Positions 12,404 through 25,475 of a DNA stretch of 32,678 nt are shown piece by piece. Position 1 is the first letter of the stretch; each line of letters starts with the position of its first letter. The notes under the pieces are model-generated. The model saw only the letters and a list, made by a program, of their open reading frames with translations. It did no database searches and had not been told where the DNA came from. Source of the DNA: Candidatus Latescibacterota bacterium (lineage in GTDB: Bacteria > Latescibacterota > UBA2968 > UBA8231); the NCBI GenBank assembly GCA_022825185.1, contig JAJDYK010000309.1, positions 1 to 32,678 of the forward strand, in the 5' to 3' direction. A program made the translations under genes and the position numbers.

Positions 12404-12428
12404 TCGCAGTAAAGTGAGGGAATTGCTT

Positions 12429-14348
12429 GTGTCCGCATTCAAACTGTTTTTTGCCGCTGCTGTCGCGTGGTGGGCCACTGCGGCCGAGGGCGAGGTGCGG
12501 CAGTGGGAATTGGGCGGTGCGGGCCGCTCTTGGCAGGACGACGAGCTAAATTCCACGGCCATCAGCTTTGATGCCGCCGGGGCGATTCAATTGGTGGGTT
12601 TTAATCCCAACGACAATATCGTCCGGCAGCTAAGGTGGAGCGAGGGCTTTCCCTTGGACTTCGTCAGTGAGGTGGCCGAGGCGCGGGTGTGGGACAACGT
12701 GCCCTTCAAGCAGAGCAATGCCCCGCTCGTCGATGGCGACGCGCAGACCTCCAGCGAAAATCGCTTCAAGGATTTCGGGGTGCTGCAAGCGGGCCGGGCC
12801 TTTTTCTTTGACTTGGGCACGCGCTTCCCCATCAATCGCATCTCGTTTTTCCCGCGCCCAGCAGGAGCCGACAGCCGCGGGCGGCCCTTTGCCGACGACT
12901 TCATCCGCGGCTATAAAATTCAGGTCAGCGATGGCGTGAGCTTCACGCCGGAAAATCTGCCGGTGTACAATCTGCTGACCCAGGTGGATTTCACCACGGA
13001 AAGCGTGGCGCAAATTCCCTTTCCCTTGCAATTCGTCCGCTACATCCAACTCAACGTGACCTCGACCAATCCCTTTGAGATCGCCGAGTTTGAGGTGTAC
13101 GGAGCGGGCTTTCCGCCGGGGGGGCGCTATCGGTCCAAGATCATCGACTTGGGCGAAGTGGCCAACTTCAGCCGCCTGCTGTGGACGACCGAGACCTTGC
13201 GCCAGCAAGAAGGCCGCATCGACGTCGAGCCAATGGCCGATGCCGACGTTTCCATTCGCATGCGCACGGGCCGCGACGATACACCGCAAGTGTTCTACGA
13301 AATCGTCAATGTTTTCACCGGCGATGTGCAGGAAGTCTCAGAGAGCGACTACGGCCGGCTGGGCCTGAACGTGCGCGGCCCGGTCGAAGACGACCAAGTC
13401 AATTGGAGCGAGTGGTCGCCGCCCTTTGCCGAGTCCGGCCAGCGGATTGAGCTGCCTAGCCCGCGTCGTTTCTTCCAACTCGAAATCGCACTCACCAGTC
13501 ACTCCATCCTCGACGGCATCCGGGTCAACTCGCTGGTGGTCGAGCACTCCATCCCGCCGTTGGCCCAGCAGCTAATAGGGGAAATCTCCGCGCTGGAAAC
13601 CCCCCGCCCCTTGGGCAACAAGCCCCGAGTGCCGGCCGGCGAACTCTCGACGTTTGCCTACGACATCCGCGCCGATATCAGCGAGACGGACGTGGGCTTT
13701 GACGCCTTGGAGATTCTCACGCCTGCTAGGCCGCAGTTCAGGGAAATGTTCATCGGCGATCCGCCCGTCGCCACCGCGCCCGACAGCGTTGTCGAGGGTG
13801 AGCGGAGCCTGAAGCTGTTCTTTCCCAGCCAACGGCTGACCCATCAATCGCCGAGTGCGTTGCGCGTTGTTTTCGACGCCGAAGTCTTCGTCCAATCCAC
13901 GTTCTTTCGCGCCCGAGTATTTGACACTCAAAGCGACGAGGCTCCGCAGCAGGTCCTGCCCGGAGATGCCAACCCCACGGTCCTGACTAATGACCTACGA
14001 GTGCTGACCACGGCCGCTTCGGCGCGCAACCTGCTGCCATTTTTTGCCGTGCAGCCGGCCGTGGTAACGCCCAATGGCGACGGGATCAACGAGCGCGTGC
14101 GCATTTCCGGTACTTTGGTCCAGCTCCAGCAACCCGTGCAGTTGACCGTGCGGATTTTTTCGCTTGGCGGCCAGCGGGTGCGCACCTTGTTTGCCGGCGT
14201 GCGCGGCAGCGGCTCTTTTGCTTGGGAATGGGACGGGCGCGACGACAGCGGCAATCCGGTGCCCGTGGGGATCTACCTCGCCGAGGTGACGGCTGACGCC
14301 GAGCGCGAGCGCTTCACGCGCCTCGGTGCAGTGGGCGTTGCCTACTAA
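12429..14348 (+). CDS. Secreted surface protein with galactose-binding-like domain and FlgD-like Ig tail
   Basis: 639 residues from the GTG at 12429, chosen because GAGGG precedes it by 8 nt; an in-frame GTG at 12414 would add five residues and has no SD. Signal peptide SAFKLFFAAAVAWWATAAEG. The order of parts matches the 4472 paralogue: WELGGAG opening, FNPNDNIVRQL, a discoidin-like region (VDGDAQTSSENR; FFDLGTRFPINRISFFP; IAEFEVYGAGF), RTGRDDTPQVFYE, NWSEWSPPF, a sandwich from LIGEISA, and a C-terminal FlgD-like domain of about 95 residues (TPNGDGINERV, IFSLGGQRVRTL, WEWDGRDDSGNPVPVGIYLAEV) ending VGVAY. F5/8C-like domains usually bind sugars or lipids, and such tails often serve as attachment or export signals. 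Third gene of the plus-strand arm, with its own candidate promoter. Confidence 0.82.
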   Translation: MSAFKLFFAAAVAWWATAAEGEVRQWELGGAGRSWQDDELNSTAISFDAAGAIQLVGFNPNDNIVRQLRWSEGFPLDFVSEVAEARVWDNVPFKQSNAPLVDGDAQTSSENRFKDFGVLQAGRAFFFDLGTRFPINRISFFPRPAGADSRGRPFADDFIRGYKIQVSDGVSFTPENLPVYNLLTQVDFTTESVAQIPFPLQFVRYIQLNVTSTNPFEIAEFEVYGAGFPPGGRYRSKIIDLGEVANFSRLLWTTETLRQQEGRIDVEPMADADVSIRMRTGRDDTPQVFYEIVNVFTGDVQEVSESDYGRLGLNVRGPVEDDQVNWSEWSPPFAESGQRIELPSPRRFFQLEIALTSHSILDGIRVNSLVVEHSIPPLAQQLIGEISALETPRPLGNKPRVPAGELSTFAYDIRADISETDVGFDALEILTPARPQFREMFIGDPPVATAPDSVVEGERSLKLFFPSQRLTHQSPSALRVVFDAEVFVQSTFFRARVFDTQSDEAPQQVLPGDANPTVLTNDLRVLTTAASARNLLPFFAVQPAVVTPNGDGINERVRISGTLVQLQQPVQLTVRIFSLGGQRVRTLFAGVRGSGSFAWEWDGRDDSGNPVPVGIYLAEVTADAERERFTRLGAVGVAY

Positions 14349-14362
14349 AAAAAGGAGAGGCT

Positions 14363-16735
14363 ATGCAGCGCATTCCATTCCTCCTATTCGCGGGTTTGAG
14401 TTTGGCGGCCCTCGTGCTGGCGGCTTACGCCCAGACTCGGAGCGCTGATCTGGAAGTGTACCGGGTCGATCGCAGAGCCGAGTGGCAGCAGTGGACCTTC
14501 CCGGCCGGTACCCTCGCAATTTCCCCAACCGGCTCAGTGACTCCCGCCGAATTCAAGGGCATGCACAACGCCGCAGTCAATGCAGATGAATTCACCCACG
14601 AACTGGTGAGCGGCAAAGAGATGCGCGGTGGCGCGTGGAAGGCCGGCACCAACCTCGCAACAGCCGGCCGGGCCATAGACGGCCGCGCTCAGACCTTTTG
14701 GCAACCCGATCCGGACGCTCCCTTAGAGGACTGGTGGATCGAGATCAATCTAGGAAGGGCTGTACTCGTGTCGGAGATTCGCCTCGTTTTCCCCGATCAA
14801 GAAGGCGCACAGCCCTTCCGCGAGTTTCGCGTCTTCGGGTCCGAGGGACGCCGCGTGACGCGCCAAGACATATTCTCTTTTCACCTGATAGGCGGCACCA
14901 CCAAGCCCATTGACGAGACTGAGGTGATTTACGACGTGAAGCCGCTGGTGAGGGAGGTGACGCGGGTGCAGGGCGCGCGCGAGGAGGGCACTGCGGACAC
15001 TACCTATGATCTGCTGCAATTCATAAGGATTTTGGTAGATGCCAAGACGCCGGACGCAGCCCTTGCCGAGGTGGAAGTGTACACGCTCGGGGAAAACATT
15101 GCCTTGCAGACCCTAGAGCGCGGCGGCGCGATTCAGGAGCGCTCGGGCCGGGGCTTTCCCTTCAAGATGGCCGACGGCAACGCCAATACCGATTGGGGAG
15201 CACGGCGGGAGCGCGGCCAAGATCCCATTGCTTGGGACTGGGATTTGGGCGCACTGTTTTGGGTGGATCGGATCGTGATGCGCACTTCGGACTTTCTGCT
15301 CCGCACGCTGACGTACGGCTCCAATCTGCCCCAGATACGCACTCATAGCTTGAGCGTTTCCAACGGTCGTCGCACGCTGACGGGCGAAGTTGATTTTGAC
15401 CAGCTCTTCGTCGGCGATACAGATGCCTTACTCGCGTCTTCGACCGAGTTCCCCGGCCAATTGACGTATCTTTTTGAGCCGCGCCCTGTGCGCTTTATCG
15501 CGGCCGAATGGGTTGGTGGTGGCGGCTCGCAGACCAGCTTTCAGTATCAGAGCGGCTTTTTGATCGAGACGCTGATGTTTGCGGTGGGCCACGTGGCCCA
15601 AGTGGAGATGAGTTCGGACTTTATCGACTTGGGGAGAATTGCCGGCGACAACCGGGCGAAAGTGATCAAATCCCTGCGCTGGGAAGCCGACCTGCCCCCG
15701 GGCGCACGCATTCAGGCACGCACTCGTTCGGGCAACGAACTGCAAGAAAATTTTCGCTACTTCCGCAAGGATGGTACCGAGGTGACAGCCGAGCAGTTTG
15801 ACCAAATGCCGAAGGCGCTACGCGGCGAAACCCAGAGCACCATCGGTATTGGCGAAGACTGGAGCGAGTGGAGCAACTTTTACCAGCGATCCGGCGAACA
15901 GTTCCTCTCCCCCAGCCCGCGCCGCTTCGTCCAAGTCCAGCTCATCCTCAGCTCAGACCGCCCGACCACCGCGCCGACTGTGCGTGTCTTGGAGATCGAA
16001 TTTACCGACGCCTTTCTCGCTGGAGTCACCGGCGAGGTGCTGCCGCGCACGGCCGAGGCGGGCGTGCGCCAGCTTTTTTCGTTCCACATAACGCCGGAGT
16101 TCGCGTCGCGCAACCCCGGGTTTGATCGCATTCTGCTGCAAACTCCATCGCCCGTCAATCCCGACTCGCTCGCTCTTACCATAGGCGGTGCCGAAGCCGA
16201 GCCAGCCTCGGTGCGCGTCGCCGGCGATTCGCTGCTGGTGGAACTGCCGCGAACAGTGCGGCGCGAGGAAGTCGCGCTGACATTTAGTACGGTCGTAGAG
16301 CGCAATGCCACGCTCTTTCGGGCCTTCGTCGGCAACGAGGGGCAGCTAGCGGTGTGGCAGCCGGTCGATCCGATGCGCCGCGCCGCTACGACCGTGTATT
16401 TGCCCAGCGTCCCGGGTACTGACCAGTTGATCACCAACCTCGCGGTGCAATCGTTCATCAGCCCCAATGGGGATGGGATCGGCGACGCTGCGGAAATCCG
16501 CTTCCACGTCCTGAAGACGGACGCGCCGGCCCAAGTGCAGATTTACACCCTCGATGGCCGACTCGTCCGCACCCTTGAAGGCCAGCGCCAGCCCGACCAG
16601 ACCTATCTATACATTTGGACCGGCCAAGACCAAGACGAGCGCGTAGTTCCTCCGGGTTCATACCTGTGCCGAGTGGAGGTGGAGGCCCAAGCTGGGGCCG
16701 CGAGCCAGCACCGCATTATCAGCGTGGCGTACTAG
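14363..16735 (+). CDS. Large secreted surface protein with two discoidin-like domains and FlgD-like Ig tail
   Basis: 790 residues, ATG preceded by AGGAG. Signal peptide MQRIPFLLFAG...AAYAQ. Two F5/8C-like regions can be seen: one around residues 105-160 (AIDGRAQTFWQPD; WWIEINLGRAVLVSEIRLVFP; FREFRVFG) and one around 265-330 (MADGNANTDWG; WDWDLGALFWVDRIVMRTS). These are followed by FIDLGRI, QARTRSGNE, DWSEWSNFY, a sandwich region from VTGEVLP, and a C-terminal FlgD-like domain (SPNGDGIGDAAEI, IYTLDGRLVRTL, VVPPGSYLCRVEVE) ending ISVAY. It is the longest of three paralogues (with 4472 and 12429) and has one extra binding domain. Only 14 nt separate it from the gene before, so they are probably co-translated. 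Likely a cell-surface or secreted binding protein; no catalytic motif seen. Confidence 0.82.
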   Translation: MQRIPFLLFAGLSLAALVLAAYAQTRSADLEVYRVDRRAEWQQWTFPAGTLAISPTGSVTPAEFKGMHNAAVNADEFTHELVSGKEMRGGAWKAGTNLATAGRAIDGRAQTFWQPDPDAPLEDWWIEINLGRAVLVSEIRLVFPDQEGAQPFREFRVFGSEGRRVTRQDIFSFHLIGGTTKPIDETEVIYDVKPLVREVTRVQGAREEGTADTTYDLLQFIRILVDAKTPDAALAEVEVYTLGENIALQTLERGGAIQERSGRGFPFKMADGNANTDWGARRERGQDPIAWDWDLGALFWVDRIVMRTSDFLLRTLTYGSNLPQIRTHSLSVSNGRRTLTGEVDFDQLFVGDTDALLASSTEFPGQLTYLFEPRPVRFIAAEWVGGGGSQTSFQYQSGFLIETLMFAVGHVAQVEMSSDFIDLGRIAGDNRAKVIKSLRWEADLPPGARIQARTRSGNELQENFRYFRKDGTEVTAEQFDQMPKALRGETQSTIGIGEDWSEWSNFYQRSGEQFLSPSPRRFVQVQLILSSDRPTTAPTVRVLEIEFTDAFLAGVTGEVLPRTAEAGVRQLFSFHITPEFASRNPGFDRILLQTPSPVNPDSLALTIGGAEAEPASVRVAGDSLLVELPRTVRREEVALTFSTVVERNATLFRAFVGNEGQLAVWQPVDPMRRAATTVYLPSVPGTDQLITNLAVQSFISPNGDGIGDAAEIRFHVLKTDAPAQVQIYTLDGRLVRTLEGQRQPDQTYLYIWTGQDQDERVVPPGSYLCRVEVEAQAGAASQHRIISVAY

Positions 16736-19491: not shown

Positions 19492-20562
19492 GTGAGTAAC
19501 ACATGGTGCCGCATTGCTGTTTGCGTCTTTTTCTGCATGTCGGCGAGTGCTTTCGCTGCTTCTGCACAGGAGACGGGTTTTGTGCTTGTGGCCTTGGAGC
19601 AACTGCGCGACCGGATGGAGCGGGACGACAAGGGCACGTTGGACGAGTTCGTCGCGGATGTTAGTTCGGCGTCTGGATTGTCCGCTGCTGCGAGTCGGGA
19701 TTCTTTGGTTTCGCTATTGCGGGACTTAAAGACTCATTGCAAGAAATCTACGGCCCTCGGCGAACAGCTTTTTGCGCTACACGGGGAGCATTTTTCTGAG
19801 TGCGAGGCCAAGGCGTATTTGGTGCGGGTCGTGGATATGGCTGGCGACTTATTAAAGAAAGAGGAGAACGTTGGGTTGGAGCCGCTGATCGCGAGGGCGG
19901 CGAGCAAAAGTAAGCTGCTCAAGTTTCAAGCGTTGGACTATACCGCGGCGCTGCTGGTTCCGTTCGTGGGGTCGCCGGTGGTGGAAGAGCTGGTTGAGGA
20001 GGAGAGCGCAGTAAATGTTCCGACTGGAACCTTTAAGGTGTTGGTGAGGACACGTAACAGTGAGGGCTTGTCTGACTGGGTTAACAGCCTAGTTGAGGGA
20101 TACGGAGATTTAGGAGATATAGATGATGAAATCTCTGGAGAGGATGCCGCCATCTTTTTTAGGATATTTAAGGTCTTCCCGCAAAAAAGAATGCAGGCTA
20201 AGAGAAAGCTGCTTGCCCTGCATGAGTCGGTTCGACCGGCGCTTTTGGACGAGCTCAAACGGTTCCGTCGCGTCCGCGTCACCACGGATCCTGCGGCCAA
20301 GGACATCCGCTATACCTTGGATTATATTGTAAATTCGTACTGGGTTGGCGGACATTATGATGTCGAACGACATACGCTACAAAGCCGCGTGCGTTTGGTG
20401 GTACAGGATGTGTTCAAGGACGAAGCGGTGCTGGAGCAGGAACTCATCATTGGGAAGCATTTCATAGCGCAGCTCAAGTCGGACGATGATTCCATTCTCG
20501 ATAATTTTTACCAAGAAGCCGCTCGCAGTGTGGCACAAGAAGTGTCGCCGTTGTTTGACTGA
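19492..20562 (+). CDS. Module protein A1: secreted protein of unknown function
   Basis: 356 residues; GTG start with AGGAG 8 nt upstream. The signal peptide NTWCRIAVCVFFCM...FAASAQ predicts export to the periplasm or beyond. The mature part looks mostly helical: amphipathic stretches such as LVALEQLRDRMERDD, SLVSLLRDLKTHCKK and YLVRVVDMAGDLLKKEEN, then a more mixed C-terminal half. I recognise no domain. It is a close copy of the protein at 21944: the first ~175 residues differ at only about a dozen positions, while the C-terminal half is much less alike, keeping HES-[VI]-RP-x-LLDELK, RYTLDY and DDFYQE-like blocks. It is always followed by a B gene. Base composition is more AT-rich than the flanking metabolic genes, hinting at acquisition. 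Confidence 0.8.
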   Translation: MSNTWCRIAVCVFFCMSASAFAASAQETGFVLVALEQLRDRMERDDKGTLDEFVADVSSASGLSAAASRDSLVSLLRDLKTHCKKSTALGEQLFALHGEHFSECEAKAYLVRVVDMAGDLLKKEENVGLEPLIARAASKSKLLKFQALDYTAALLVPFVGSPVVEELVEEESAVNVPTGTFKVLVRTRNSEGLSDWVNSLVEGYGDLGDIDDEISGEDAAIFFRIFKVFPQKRMQAKRKLLALHESVRPALLDELKRFRRVRVTTDPAAKDIRYTLDYIVNSYWVGGHYDVERHTLQSRVRLVVQDVFKDEAVLEQELIIGKHFIAQLKSDDDSILDNFYQEAARSVAQEVSPLFD

Positions 20563-20590
20563 AAACGCTCATATCCGTCGCTGAGTGCAT

Positions 20591-21844
20591 ATGCACCGGT
20601 CCTCGACCAAAACCAAGAGACTGGCCGTCTGCCTATTCCTCTCGGCCCTCCTGCATTTGGCTGTGGTCTTGTTGACCCCTTCCACACCCGACCCGCAACC
20701 AGCCCTTCAGGTGGTTTTTCGTCTGCCGCCGCGTGTACTAGAAATGAGGGCCTTTGATCCTACGAAACCAGCTTTGCACCAGCGGCAAATGCAGCGTTTG
20801 GTCGTCAAGGCTGCGCCATTGCAGCTTGCTCAGGAACCCGCCGAATCCGTTCCTCTTGGCGAGATTGCAGAGCAACTGCCGCCCGAGGCCCGCTCCGACA
20901 TGGCGCACTTGGAAAAGAGGATGCAGATAGAGTGGTCTGACTATGTGAATATCGACTCTTTGCTGTTGGCATATATGGCCGAGAAGGAAAACTTTCGCGA
21001 GGACTACGCGCGTTTTCCCTTAGCCAGGATAGGCGCAGACCGCGACCGGGCCTTGGAGGTGATAGAGCGGGCGATTGAAGCTATGGGCGGTAGGAAGCGC
21101 CTACTCGCAATAAAAGAAATGAGCGCGATGGTGTGGATAGAGGTCAACTTAAAGGAGCTAAGAATGCCTTCTTGGCAAAATGGTGTTCCTCTATCGGTGA
21201 TTTCAGTGAACCCCTATCTGTACCCGGTGGCGACTTGGCACTACGAAGGATGGGGAAATCACGCGGTATCTAAAAAAGAAAAATACAAGGTAGAGGTTTC
21301 GTTCGACCCGGCGGTCCCCAACCCGTCTTATGTGAGCAAAAATCCCAAGCGACAACCGAGAATATTCGAGACGCTCTTTAACGATCGCTGGAGTCAGTAT
21401 GGAAGCAACCTGCCTCCTAATTTAGCCGCCATGCGCCACCGGGGTGAAGAGGTCCGTTGGCATTTTATCGACCGTTTTCTGGGCGAGGGCGTGGCCTTGG
21501 ATTACTTGGGGCAAGAGCGCAGTCGAGACGGGACTTGCTATGAGGCCGTGCTGGTCGATGACCGGAAGTTTGGACACTATTTTGAGGCGCTCTTTGACTG
21601 CCGCACGGCGCTCCTATCCGTCACCAGAGAGAAGCTGACGTCCCAAGAAGAGCAATGGTTTAGGCAAGCCAATCCCAAGGTCAATCCGCCGACTTGGATC
21701 ACGGTTTACGATCGCTACCAAGCAGTGCAGGGTGTGTTGACGCCCCATCGCTGGGAACGGGCACAGGGGAGGAATACCATCGCTGTATATTTGCAATGGG
21801 CGTATAACGGCGCGGAGCCGTCAACTGCCGAACCTGTTCGATAG
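20591..21844 (+). CDS. Module protein B1: TonB-like N-terminal membrane helix joined to a LolA-like domain
   Basis: 417 residues from the ATG at 20591 (the GTG at 20585 is also possible; no strong SD at either). A basic start (KTKR) leads into one transmembrane helix, AVCLFLSALLHLAVVLL, so the protein should be inner-membrane anchored with its bulk in the periplasm. The helix has Ser18 and His22 spaced as in the TonB transmembrane motif (S16/H20 in E. coli). A linker with two PPEAR/PPR-type stretches follows instead of a long Pro-Lys rod. From about residue 160 the sequence (AIEAMGGRKRLLAIKEMSAM ... WHFIDRFLGEGVAL ... CYEAVLVDDRKFGHYFEALFDCRTALL ... YDRYQAVQGVLTPHRWE) follows the pattern of LolA/LolB-like lipoprotein-carrier beta-sheets. 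No TonB_C domain. Paralogue of 23045. Confidence 0.78.
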   Translation: MHRSSTKTKRLAVCLFLSALLHLAVVLLTPSTPDPQPALQVVFRLPPRVLEMRAFDPTKPALHQRQMQRLVVKAAPLQLAQEPAESVPLGEIAEQLPPEARSDMAHLEKRMQIEWSDYVNIDSLLLAYMAEKENFREDYARFPLARIGADRDRALEVIERAIEAMGGRKRLLAIKEMSAMVWIEVNLKELRMPSWQNGVPLSVISVNPYLYPVATWHYEGWGNHAVSKKEKYKVEVSFDPAVPNPSYVSKNPKRQPRIFETLFNDRWSQYGSNLPPNLAAMRHRGEEVRWHFIDRFLGEGVALDYLGQERSRDGTCYEAVLVDDRKFGHYFEALFDCRTALLSVTREKLTSQEEQWFRQANPKVNPPTWITVYDRYQAVQGVLTPHRWERAQGRNTIAVYLQWAYNGAEPSTAEPVR

Positions 21845-21872
21845 GAAGCAGTGCAAAAGGAAAGTTAGTGCG

Positions 21873-21947
21873 ATGAAAATACGCGATAATGTGAGCGGCG
21901 TCCCCGGTATTATCGTATATCTATTGTGCAAGGAGGTAGATGCGTGA
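21873..21947 (+). pseudogene. Relic of the enolase-family gene start, now a 24-codon mini-ORF
   Basis: ATGAAAATACGCGATA at 21873-21888 is identical to the first 16 bases of the enolase-family gene at 24354. The 5' flank is similar too (GTGCAAAAG, then TAG-x-GCG just before the ATG). After base 16 the match is lost, and the frame runs 24 codons to a TGA at 21945-21947, which overlaps the GTG start of A2 (GTGA). Most likely a breakpoint fragment left by the AB duplication. It may still be translated and couple ribosomes to A2. Confidence 0.6.
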
Positions 21948-23026
21948 ATAACACATGGTGCCGCATTGCGGTTTGCGTCTTTTTCTGCATGACATCAAGT
22001 GCTTTCGCCGCTTCTGCACAAGAGGCGAGTTTTGTGCTCGTGGCCTTGGAGCAACTGCGCGACCGCATGGAGCGGGACGACAAGGGAATGTTGGATGAGT
22101 TCGTCGCGGACGTCAGTGCCGCGTCAGGGTTGTCGGCTGCCGCGAGTCGGGATTCTTTGGTCTCACTGTTGCGGGATCTAAAGACTCATTGCAAGAAATC
22201 CACGGCCCTCGGCGAACAGCTCTTTGCGCTACACGGCGAACATTTTTCTGAGCGCGAGGCCAAGGCGTACTTGGTGCGGGTTGTGGATATGGCCGGCGAC
22301 CTGTTAAAGAAAGAAGAGAATGTTGGGCTGGAGCCGCTGATTGCCAAAGCGGCGAGCAAAAGCAAGCTGCTCAAATTTCAAGCATTGGATTATACAGCGG
22401 CGCTGCTGGTTCCGTTTGTCGGGTCGCCGGTGGTGGAAGAGCTGGTTGAGGATGAGGGCGCAGTAAACGCCCTAGCGGGACCTATTCGCGTGTTAGTGAA
22501 GACGCGCAATAGTGGGGACTTGCAGGCCGTTCTCGATCAAGGTCTTATATTGTCTGGCCGATCTGGCCACCATCGAATAGATATAGACAGTGTGATAAAC
22601 AATATGGTCTTTTCTAAGATATTTAAGGCCGCTTCATCTCAGACGACAAAAAAGAAAATTCTCCTTGCAATGCATGAGTCCATTCGACCAGTCCTCTTGG
22701 ACGAACTCAAACAGTTCGACCGCGTTCATTGGACCACGGATATCGCATCTGTCAAGGACGCCCGCTATACTTTGGATTACTTGGCAGACTGGTACTCATT
22801 CGGCAAGGATAATGACCAGCAACAATTCAAGCTACAAACCTCCGTGCAGTTGGTAATGAAAGATGTGCTTGAGGACAAAGAGTTACTGAATAAGTGGCTT
22901 GTCGTTAATGCGGATTTTGAGATGGACAAGGCACCTATTCCCGATGATTTTTACCAAGAAGTAGCCAGCACTGTGGCGCAAGAAGTGTTCGACTGTTTGC
23001 TTGAAAACGGTCGTCTGCGTCGCTGA
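21944..23026 (+). CDS. Module protein A2: secreted protein of unknown function, paralogue of A1
   Basis: 360 residues from the GTG at 21944, which has a strong SD (AAGGAGG, 7 nt) and aligns with the A1 start; a TTG at 21926 would read through the SD and is rejected. The signal peptide NTWCRIAVCVFFCMTSSAFAASAQ is nearly identical to that of A1. Residues up to about 175 are almost the same as in A1 at the protein level, while many DNA differences between the copies are silent, which points to purifying selection on this half. The C-terminal half has diverged and gained a few residues (GRSGHHRIDIDS region); it ends DDFYQEVAST...LENGRLRR. Function unknown; probably partner of B2, whose ATG is 18 nt downstream. 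Confidence 0.8.
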   Translation: MNNTWCRIAVCVFFCMTSSAFAASAQEASFVLVALEQLRDRMERDDKGMLDEFVADVSAASGLSAAASRDSLVSLLRDLKTHCKKSTALGEQLFALHGEHFSEREAKAYLVRVVDMAGDLLKKEENVGLEPLIAKAASKSKLLKFQALDYTAALLVPFVGSPVVEELVEDEGAVNALAGPIRVLVKTRNSGDLQAVLDQGLILSGRSGHHRIDIDSVINNMVFSKIFKAASSQTTKKKILLAMHESIRPVLLDELKQFDRVHWTTDIASVKDARYTLDYLADWYSFGKDNDQQQFKLQTSVQLVMKDVLEDKELLNKWLVVNADFEMDKAPIPDDFYQEVASTVAQEVFDCLLENGRLRR

Positions 23027-23044
23027 GCGCGAAAGGAGGTCGCT

Positions 23045-24328
23045 ATGCAGTGGTCCACAACTGAAACCAAGAGAGTAGCTGTCTGCCTATTCCTCTCGGT
23101 CCTTCTGCATTTGGCCGTAGTCTTGTTGACTCCTACTATGCCTGACTCGCAACCGGCCTTTCAGGTAGTTTTTCGTCCGCCGCCGCGCGCACTGGAAACG
23201 AGGGCCTTCGATCCGACGAAACCCGCTTTGCACGAGCGGCAAATGCAGCGGTTGGTCGTCAAGGCTGCGCCATTGCAGCTTGCTCAGGAATCCGTCGCAT
23301 CCATTCCTCTTGACGAGATTGCAGAGCAATTGCCGCCCGAGGCACGCTCCGCCATGGCGCACTTGGAAAAGAGGGTACGGATAGAGCGGTCTGGCGATGT
23401 GAATATAGACTCCTTGCTTTTGGCGTTCGTGGCCGCTGAGGGGAACTTCCGCGAGGACTACGCGCGCTTTCCCCTCGCCAAGATGGGCGCAGACCGCGAC
23501 CGGGCCTTGGAAGTAGTAGAGCGGGCGATTGAAGCTATGGGTGGTAGGCAACGCCTGCTTGAGATACGAGCAATGAGCGCGATGGTGTGGATGGAGGCCA
23601 GTGTAAGAGATTTGAAAAAGCCTTCTTGCCAAGGTGGTGTTTGCCTATCGGCGATTCCAGTGACCCCTTATCTGTATCCGGTGGCGACTTGGCACTACGA
23701 GGGATGGGGAGATCGCGCTGTCTCTACCAAAGAAAAATACAAGGTAGAGGTTTCGTTCGATCCTGCGGTCTCCAATCCATCTTATGTGAGCAAGAATCCC
23801 TCCATCCGGGAGCGGGGTACATTTGAGGCGCTCTTTGAAGATCGCTGGGGACGGTATAGAGACATCCTGCCTCCTGATTTGGCCGCAAAGCGCCACCGGG
23901 GCGAAGAGGTCCGCTGGCATTTCATCGACCGCTTTATGGGCGAGGGCGTGGCTTTGGATTATCTCGAGCAGGAGCGCCATAAGGACGGAACTTGCCATGA
24001 TGTCTTGCTGGTAGATGATCGGAAGTTCGGGCATTATTTCGAGGCGCTCTTTGACTGTCGCACCGCGCTCTTGGCCGAGACCAGAGAGAAGCTAACGCCT
24101 CAAGAAGAGCAATGGTTCAAGCAAGCCAACCCCAACTTTCTGCCGCCGACTTGGATCACTACTTACAATAGCTACCAAGAAGTGCAAGGCGTGTTGACGT
24201 CCCATTGCTGGGAACGGACGCTGGATATGCCGGGGGGGCGTACCAGCAAAAGACACTCGACCAGCCATATACACTTGCAATGGGCGTATAATGGCGCGGA
24301 GTTGTCAACAGCCGAACCTACCCTCTGA
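23045..24328 (+). CDS. Module protein B2: TonB-like N-terminal membrane helix joined to a LolA-like domain, paralogue of B1
   Basis: 427 residues; ATG with AAAGGAGG directly upstream, a far better SD than B1 has, so B2 may be made at a higher level. Same plan as B1: basic ETKR, one membrane helix AVCLFLSVLLHLAVVLL with S18 and H22, a PP-rich linker (FRPPPRALETR, LPPEARSAMAHLEKR), a helical stretch, then the LolA-like region (AIEAMGGRQRLLEIRAMSAM, WHFIDRFMGEGVAL, CHDVLLVDDRKFGHYFEALFDCRTALL, YNSYQEVQGVLTSHCWE). The two B proteins are alike over the full length, unlike the A proteins. Near the end B2 carries an insertion (LDMPGGRTSKRHSTSH) absent from B1. It could carry a lipid or lipoprotein across the periplasm using ExbBD energy; this is inference. 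Confidence 0.78.
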   Translation: MQWSTTETKRVAVCLFLSVLLHLAVVLLTPTMPDSQPAFQVVFRPPPRALETRAFDPTKPALHERQMQRLVVKAAPLQLAQESVASIPLDEIAEQLPPEARSAMAHLEKRVRIERSGDVNIDSLLLAFVAAEGNFREDYARFPLAKMGADRDRALEVVERAIEAMGGRQRLLEIRAMSAMVWMEASVRDLKKPSCQGGVCLSAIPVTPYLYPVATWHYEGWGDRAVSTKEKYKVEVSFDPAVSNPSYVSKNPSIRERGTFEALFEDRWGRYRDILPPDLAAKRHRGEEVRWHFIDRFMGEGVALDYLEQERHKDGTCHDVLLVDDRKFGHYFEALFDCRTALLAETREKLTPQEEQWFKQANPNFLPPTWITTYNSYQEVQGVLTSHCWERTLDMPGGRTSKRHSTSHIHLQWAYNGAELSTAEPTL

Positions 24329-24353
24329 CCTTCACAGTGCAAAAGCTAGGGCG

Positions 24354-25475
24354 ATGAAAATACGCGATATTGATACCATTCTGATCGACTCGCCGGGCCG
24401 CAAATGGACGATTGTGCGAGTCTTTACAGACGAAGGCCTAGTGGGTTTGGGCGAGGCCACGTATTCCCAAAAGGAGCCGGTGGTAGTCGCCGCGGTCGAT
24501 CACCTCAAGCAAGAGCTGATCGGCGAAGACCCGGCGCGCATCGAGTACTTGTGGCACAAGCTCTATTTGCGCTCCTCGCTGAGCTGCATTTGGCGCATGG
24601 CGGGTCCCGTGTGGATGAGCGCCATGAGCGGCATTGACCAAGCGCTGTGGGACATCAAGGGCAAGGTGGCGAACCTGCCGGTGGTCGAACTGTTGGGCGG
24701 CAAGTTCCGCGACCGGGTCGAGGTCTATACGCACTTTGGCGGTGCCACGCCCGAGGATTCGGCGAACATGGCGCGGGAAAAGGTAGCAGAGGGGTACACT
24801 GCGCTTAAAGGCGGAGCGCGGTCGCGGAGTGGGGCCGACTTTGGTCAATACGCGGACGACGGCCATCCGACCGAGACGGCAGAGCACTTCGCCGCAGTGC
24901 GGGAAGCGGTGGGGCCGGATGTCAAGCTGCTGATTGATTGCCACGGTCGCTTCACAGTGGCCCAGTGCATCCGCTTGGCCCGCGCGATAGAGGCGTATGA
25001 TCTCTATGTGTTTGAAGACCCTGTGCCGCCGGAAGACCTGAACGCCTATCCAAAAGTGCGGCGGGAAATTTCCATTCCGGTCATGGGCAGCGAGCGGCTC
25101 AACACCAAGAGCCACTACCGCCAATTGTTGGAGCTAGATGGCATCGACGTGGCGCAACCGGATCTAATGTACGCCGGCGGGATTACCGAAGTGCGCAAAA
25201 TAGCGGCCATTGCCGACACCTTTCACGTGCCTATCTCGCCGCACAACACCAAAGGCCCGGTCGGCATCATTGCGGCTGCACATTTGATGGCCTCCATACC
25301 GAATGTGGCTCCCATGGAATTCGTCACCGGCATTGCGTGGCGGGACGAGATCATCACCGAGCCGCTGCGGGTGGAGGGCAGTTGCATTGTGTTGCCGGAA
25401 GGCCCGGGTTTGGGAATTGAACTGGACGTGGATGGGGTGGAAAAGCACCGCTGGCGAGTGGGCGATCCACACTGA
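24354..25475 (+). CDS. Enolase-superfamily (mandelate racemase/muconate lactonizing) enzyme, D-galactonate dehydratase-like
   Basis: 373 residues from the ATG at 24354 (MKIRDIDTILID is a usual start for the family; upstream in-frame starts lie inside B2). An N-terminal capping domain (to about 120) is followed by a TIM barrel. Metal ligands and acid/base residues I can place are D195 (LLIDCHGRF), E221 (YVFEDPVPPED), E247 (VMGSERL) and H297 (SPHNTKGPVG). The D-x-H-G-R motif with H197 and the PHN-x-x-GP motif are those of the acid-sugar dehydratase group typified by DgoD. Expected chemistry is removal of water from an aldonic acid to give a 2-keto-3-deoxy acid, in the cytoplasm with Mg2+. Substrate unproven. 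The same ATG-proximal 16 bases occur as a relic at 21873. Pairs logically with the lactonase-like gene at 17775. Confidence 0.87.
   Translation: MKIRDIDTILIDSPGRKWTIVRVFTDEGLVGLGEATYSQKEPVVVAAVDHLKQELIGEDPARIEYLWHKLYLRSSLSCIWRMAGPVWMSAMSGIDQALWDIKGKVANLPVVELLGGKFRDRVEVYTHFGGATPEDSANMAREKVAEGYTALKGGARSRSGADFGQYADDGHPTETAEHFAAVREAVGPDVKLLIDCHGRFTVAQCIRLARAIEAYDLYVFEDPVPPEDLNAYPKVRREISIPVMGSERLNTKSHYRQLLELDGIDVAQPDLMYAGGITEVRKIAAIADTFHVPISPHNTKGPVGIIAAAHLMASIPNVAPMEFVTGIAWRDEIITEPLRVEGSCIVLPEGPGLGIELDVDGVEKHRWRVGDPH

Follow-up and report, generated by a model that had tools for sequence, protein, structure and literature searches.

What would a LolA-like domain do at the end of a membrane helix resembling that of TonB? 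The question is raised by two related proteins, B1 and B2, encoded on a 32,678-nucleotide contig of a Candidatus Latescibacterota bacterium (GenBank assembly GCA_022825185.1, contig JAJDYK010000309.1; hereafter the window, meaning the whole stretch analysed), in which two gene pairs stand in tandem on the + strand, A1–B1 and then A2–B2 (Table 1). An earlier note on this DNA had taken the B proteins for a lipid or lipoprotein shuttle coupled to the proton motive force. We arrive at a related reading, in which B would be a proton-motive-force-coupled carrier of lipids or lipoproteins, and place the probability of the whole at a little under one half (about 0.47). The LolA-like fold, the conserved Ser and His and the presence of exbB and exbD in relatives sustain the earlier interpretation, which is weakened in that only the S–H half of the TonB SHLS motif is kept; it had also taken no account of the partner protein A or of the other architectures in which the helix–linker module occurs. 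Statements about genomes rest on relatives' genomes, and with about 8,000 candidates scored in each protein search, family lists may be incomplete.

A conserved S-x3-H motif in the N-terminal helix of B

In the structure model, B1 has a single N-terminal helix (residues 7–30, counted from the in-frame GTG), and the motif Ser18–x3–His22, counted from the ATG, is read in both B1 and B2, as the earlier note had described. Homologues were collected with B2 as query (101 proteins) and with seven aligned rows of distant members (69 proteins, many of them in both sets). From the resulting 139, both A proteins, P0103 (a partial sequence) and P0105 (an A–B chimera) were removed, which left 135. A hydrophobic segment lies near the N-terminus in 122 of these 135 and contains S-x3-H in every case (122/122); most of the remaining 13 start after the helix, and one, P0099, has an extra N-terminal stretch. 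In the open reading frames (ORFs) P0105 and P0099, A sequence is mixed with B sequence; these chimeras are attributable to tandem-copy recombination, frame breaks or assembly.

The same two residues stand out in alignment A3, which comprises 74 hand-chosen homologues with a mean column identity of 37%: S20 and H24 (GTG numbering) are the sole positions before residue 100 that are at least 90% conserved. Both are present in 17/17 rows that are less than 60% identical to each other, rows in which no other helix position is invariant. As a control, 263 unrelated ORFs from the same loci (150 residues or more, family hits and duplicates removed) yielded 72 N-terminal hydrophobic segments, none of which carried S-x3-H. 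Judged by these comparisons, conservation of the motif is above chance and, as the earlier reading had presumed, extends to homologues from other genomes.

A flexible linker and a LolA-like tip

Beyond the helix, the B1 model has a long, flexible linker (residues ~31–148) with block means of the predicted local distance difference test (pLDDT) of 36–54, followed by residues 149–413, which fold in a LolA-like manner by fold comparison. The nearest folds are LolA-like and DUF1329, and Foldseek matches also include the mycobacterial lipoproteins LprG and LprF, which have the same superfamily fold. On the strength of this model the tip very probably has a LolA-superfamily fold; the ~265 residues concerned correspond to the last ~260 that the earlier note had called LolA-like, and an unrelated fold was not found. 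That B ends without a TonB C-terminal domain likewise holds: neither TonB_C nor LolA-type families are among the weak Pfam hits of the 74 members (best E value 0.021; E up to 1), nor are the TolA C-terminal domain or vWA.

A related module beside exbB and exbD

Motor genes, which the earlier note had suggested looking for elsewhere in the genome, are present in relatives: ExbD has 5–11 matches per genome in 6/6 relative genomes, TonB_C is found in 6/6, and MotA_ExbB has seven matches in each of two such genomes searched. The link to B came from a B2 search of the relatives' genomes, which gave a weak match (E 0.009) to a 453-residue protein encoded immediately downstream of exbD. This protein consists of an S-x3-H helix, a B-like linker and a DUF4159 tip (E 9.5e-25), and the order TPR protein, exbB, exbD, DUF4159 protein recurs at four loci (L044–L047) in four genomes that also carry B. 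An exbD–DUF4159 order is also seen at L105:5025-6719, and phmmer queries for exbB and exbD match at these five loci only. From its sequence, the DUF4159 protein looks like a motor-driven transducer.

The resemblance to B is not confined to the helix. With a profile of the B linker only, from which the helix had been removed, the five DUF4159 proteins linked to exbD matched at E values between 5.5e-5 and 3.9e-4, and two of the longer forms scored 0.0011 and 0.008; the first unrelated ORF of 322 came in at 0.19. All 13 DUF4159-type proteins carry S-x3-H, and in all 13 DUF4159 exceeds its cut-off. Nine of them came from the phylum search, eight of 577–616 residues and one of 417 residues (L105, with exbD adjoining). 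Longer S-x3-H DUF4159 proteins of 585–616 residues lie at L089, L101, L102, L103, L104, L106 and L107, and at several of the longer-DUF4159 loci the neighbours resemble, by eye from the starts of their sequences, genes of the 2-oxoglutarate dehydrogenase complex. That a related helix–linker module sits in an exbB–exbD operon gives the best grounds for supposing that the B helix meets an ExbBD motor, and we consider coupling of B to the motor probable on these sequence grounds.

Partner A and the spread of B

Scanning of genome contigs turned up seven B-encoding loci (L001–L007), all from metagenome-assembled genomes labelled Latescibacterota/Latescibacteria or Gemmatimonadetes/Gemmatimonadota. 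A stands directly upstream of B at 10/10 full-length B genes in these loci, a count that leaves out the L002 B, truncated by the contig start; the L006 A is divided between two frames. Between 12414 and 32262 the gene order of the window is preserved in L001, with proteins ~92–99% identical and A and B 76–93% identical. Copy patterns vary from AB-AB (L001, L003) and AB-AB-A (L004) to AB-A (L007) and AB (L005, L006). The ratio of nonsynonymous to synonymous substitution rates (dN/dS) was 0.14–0.36 in 13/13 comparisons with five of the seven loci; A and B are under purifying selection.

In the structure model, residues 178–356 of A1 have a PqiC/LptE/CsgG/TolB-N-type fold. The matches include the TolB N-domain, PqiC, LptE, CsgG, FlgT, TraT and HpaA, so the likeness to TolB is not specific. 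Residues ~25–160 form an additional N-terminal helical part, modelled with low confidence. A is probably exported, as judged by eye from its signal, and no lipobox is seen by eye. A1 matched no Pfam family at 0.001, its weak hits all falling below cut-offs (best DUF6879, E 0.0031).

At greater distance, 64 genomes from the phylum to which genome G006 belongs were searched, and 23 matched the B profile at E 1e-5 or better; in 16 of the 23 the match reaches the LolA-like core, and in seven it covers the helix–linker part only. Some members are long forms of 527–646 residues, in which an extra C-terminal part follows the LolA-like core. The idea that A is the counterpart of the extra domain of the ~530-residue forms was not retained: the hhalign alignment had the expected strand order and was not significant (probability 1.7%, P 0.029). 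Nor could A be upheld as a partner throughout the B family, its profile matching L001–L007, the window and just one of 12 distant B loci (L093). An A-like N-terminal sequence (E 2.9e-6) begins at the end of a long B gene at L093:7568-7952 and is cut by the contig end. The lipoproteins adjoining B in L090 and L092 resemble neither A nor each other.

A proposed motor-driven carrier and its rivals

We propose that B is an inner-membrane-anchored force transducer that would work in the manner of TonB and TolA. Its helix would dock through Ser18 and His22 on a pentamer of the ExbB type whose gene lies in another part of the genome, its flexible linker of ~118 residues would span the periplasm, and the LolA-like half-barrel would replace the TonB/TolA domain. 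Cycles of the motor, powered, we infer, by the proton motive force, would push the tip out and draw it back, or detach it from its partner, and a lipid or lipoprotein would thereby be handed across between inner membrane and outer-membrane side, where, in the window's close relatives, the tip would meet A as a putative receiver. That the cargo is a lipid or lipoprotein, and that it moves outwards, are conjectural, the former standing at even odds. More tentative still is a wider scheme in which, in these Latescibacterota-type bacteria, one helix–linker module carries exchangeable tips (LolA-like, LolA-like with an extra part, or DUF4159) and, with the LolA-like tip, forms an ExbBD-driven shuttle to a PqiC/LptE-like partner that dispenses with ABC (LolCDE, Lpt) and RND engines.

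Several observations weigh against the carrier reading. Five phmmer queries found no exbB or exbD near B in the window or the fetched B loci. Among listed B-family members, the Leu of SHLS (H+7) is present in 2/18 and its last Ser (H+11) in 0/18; in listed DUF4159 types both score 0/12. According to a review (PMC12905483), the Leu of TonB SHLS makes no contact with ExbB and the last Ser touches the N-terminal amphipathic helix of ExbB. Just one of five TonB_C proteins of relatives' genomes with listed N-termini carries S-x3-H (L034; Ala stands in place of Ser in L032 and Asn in place of His in L038, and both residues are absent from L033 and L040), so that even likely true TonB proteins do not hold to the motif strictly. 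A D-box-like alternating strand after the helix, entertained as a second motor contact, was dropped when a crude pattern test against shuffles gave no enrichment (6/17 versus 5.1 expected in B; 1/8 versus 2.2 in DUF4159 types). By the linker profile, the longer DUF4159 forms cannot be told apart from chance matches (best 0.0011 and 0.008, the rest at 0.2 or above), and the same holds for several distant true members of the B family. The 13 DUF4159-type proteins are not independent, since they were found by helix-containing queries, which makes their S-x3-H partly an effect of choice, and include several near copies. Sequence-level homology to LolA was sought with Pfam (74 members), a PDB sequence search and hhalign and was not found, and a weak test with single sequences gave no match to the relatives' own LolA_like and LolA. 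Finally, the A model is moderate overall (pLDDT 69.8, predicted template modelling score 0.49), and the absence of A from 11/12 distant B loci lowered our confidence in the whole.

The nearest rival keeps the motor and removes the cargo: as in TolA–TolB, a motor-driven B would use its LolA-like head to grip A or an outer-membrane lipoprotein. We find this Tol-like tether somewhat doubtful. The nearest folds of the tip, LolA-like and DUF1329, commonly belong to lipid or lipoprotein carriers, and the TolB likeness of A, shared with so many other folds, lends the tether nothing specific.

Two further rivals are rated lower. B could be a passive, membrane-tethered LolA-like chaperone that keeps Ser and His for helix packing or for another partner, as the absence of exbBD beside B, the half-kept SHLS, the unenriched D-box-like pattern and the looseness of S-x3-H among TonB_C proteins would allow. 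We nonetheless judge a passive anchor improbable, given that S and H are the sole invariant helix residues in 17 divergent rows and that the related module of the DUF4159 branch is encoded with exbB–exbD and carries S-x3-H in all 13 proteins examined. Alternatively, the LolA-like domain might work like RseB/MucB, which have a LolA-like fold and bind an anti-sigma factor, so that B would report the state of lipids or lipoproteins in the envelope. Such a sensor is very improbable: its fold matches have a lower Z than the carrier-type matches, and no sigma or anti-sigma family appeared among the ten other window proteins scanned.

Organization of the locus

B1 and B2 are 75.5% identical over 417 aligned codons, and A1 and A2 70.1% over 345. 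The start of A2 was placed at a GTG on account of its likeness to A1 and of a GGAGG at 21932-21936. Behind B1, a 28-bp repeat, 93% identical to the start of the mandelate-racemase-type gene downstream of B2, is likely the scar of the A–B tandem duplication. That gene, called at window positions 24291-25475, likely starts at ATG 24354 and not at 24291 within B2, since the sequence round this ATG recurs in the scar.

Further upstream, the two proteins encoded at 12414-14348 and 14363-16735 have FlgD_ig and CHU_C ends. A link between B and these secreted-type neighbours was dropped: genomes G005 and G006 each hold at least 150 FlgD_ig matches, and where proteins with type IX-like C-terminal domains are this numerous, chance would be expected to place some of them near B.

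Table 1. Positions of the A and B genes, their parts and related features (window coordinates, except for loci given with an L number)
Feature	Position	Strand	Remarks
A1, partner upstream of B1, 356 residues	19492..20562	+	export signal judged by eye
A1 C-terminal domain, residues 178–356	20023..20559	+	PqiC/LptE/CsgG/TolB-N-type fold, model
B1, TonB-type anchored LolA-like protein, 417 residues from ATG 20591	20591..21844	+	in-frame GTG at 20585
B1 N-terminal transmembrane helix, model residues 7–30 (GTG 20585 numbering)	20603..20674	+	pLDDT ~88
B1 S-x3-H motif, Ser18...His22	20642..20656	+	Ser18 20642-20644, His22 20654-20656
B1 periplasmic linker, ~118 residues, mostly low confidence	20675..21028	+	structure model
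B1 LolA-like domain, model residues 149–413	21029..21823	+	structure model, fold comparison
Likely remnant, behind B1, of the start of a mandelate-racemase-type gene	21861..21888	+	93% over 28 bp to 24342-24369
A2, second A copy, start at GTG 21944	21944..23026	+	start given by the ORF tool, 21926
B2, second B copy, 427 residues, from ATG 23045	23045..24328	+	
B2 S-x3-H motif, Ser18...His22	23096..23110	+	Ser18 23096-23098, His22 23108-23110
B2 LolA-like domain, approximate limits	23483..24307	+	aligned to B1; fold taken from B1 model
Long B forms	L048:2135-3745, L093:5692-7632, L097:5522-7129, L098:5645-7228, L099:825-2426		

Relation to known systems

B resembles TonB and TolA in its single N-terminal S-x3-H helix, its long, low-confidence periplasmic linker and its globular C-terminal tip, and motor genes are present in relatives' genomes; it differs from them in lacking a TonB_C or TolA C-terminal domain, in not keeping the L and S of SHLS and in not being encoded with exbBD. 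LolA, LolB, LolA_like (PF17131) and DUF1329 proteins are soluble or lipid-anchored, whereas B is tied to a motor-type helix and has no sequence-level match to them. A shares the fold of its residues 178–356 with PqiC (DUF330), LptE, PelC, CsgG and the TolB N-domain, and is set apart from PqiC/LptE-type lipoproteins by its N-terminal helical part, the lack of a Pfam match and, by eye, of a lipobox.

The closest published counterparts are the SHLS force transducers with a vWA tip predicted by Williams-Jones et al. 2025 (PMC12204202), whose genes, according to that paper, often follow TPR and tolQ-like genes and a pair of tolR-like genes in the PVC group, and of which the authors state that such systems remain to be discovered. 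These transducers share with B a motor-docking helix, a linker of ~100 residues and a C-terminal domain unrelated to TonB or TolA; they carry a vWA tip where B has a LolA-like one, and B lies outside any motor operon. The TPR–exbB–exbD–DUF4159 order comes near to their operons, as far as these are set out there, and the word LolA is absent from the paper's main text. In the literature searched (titles and openings of abstracts, excluding preprints and most subscription journals), we found no description of a motor-helix transducer with a LolA-like or DUF4159 tip and no mention of DUF4159, and a word search of the accessible text of a paper on sponge-associated Latescibacterota (PMC12993501) returned no TonB, ExbB, LolA, lipoprotein or outer membrane. 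On sequence and model, B would extend the SHLS-transducer idea to a LolA-like tip and its sibling would extend it to a DUF4159 tip, which would widen the set of force transducers other than TonB beyond the vWA-tipped ones of the 2025 prediction (PMC12204202).

If the carrier reading is true, a LolA-like domain on a motor-docking helix joins the Ton/Tol motors and lipid traffic directly. How lipid traffic to the outer membrane is supplied with energy has long been asked; the carriers of LolA type known so far draw on ATP (LolCDE) or are tied to RND pumps, and what Ton/Tol motors are known to pull on is TonB-dependent transporters or the TolB–Pal system. Coupling to the motor offers one-residue tests, at S18 and H22. 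Together, these data suggest that, in one group of uncultured bacteria, a proton-driven motor may power the movement of lipids or lipoproteins towards the outer membrane.
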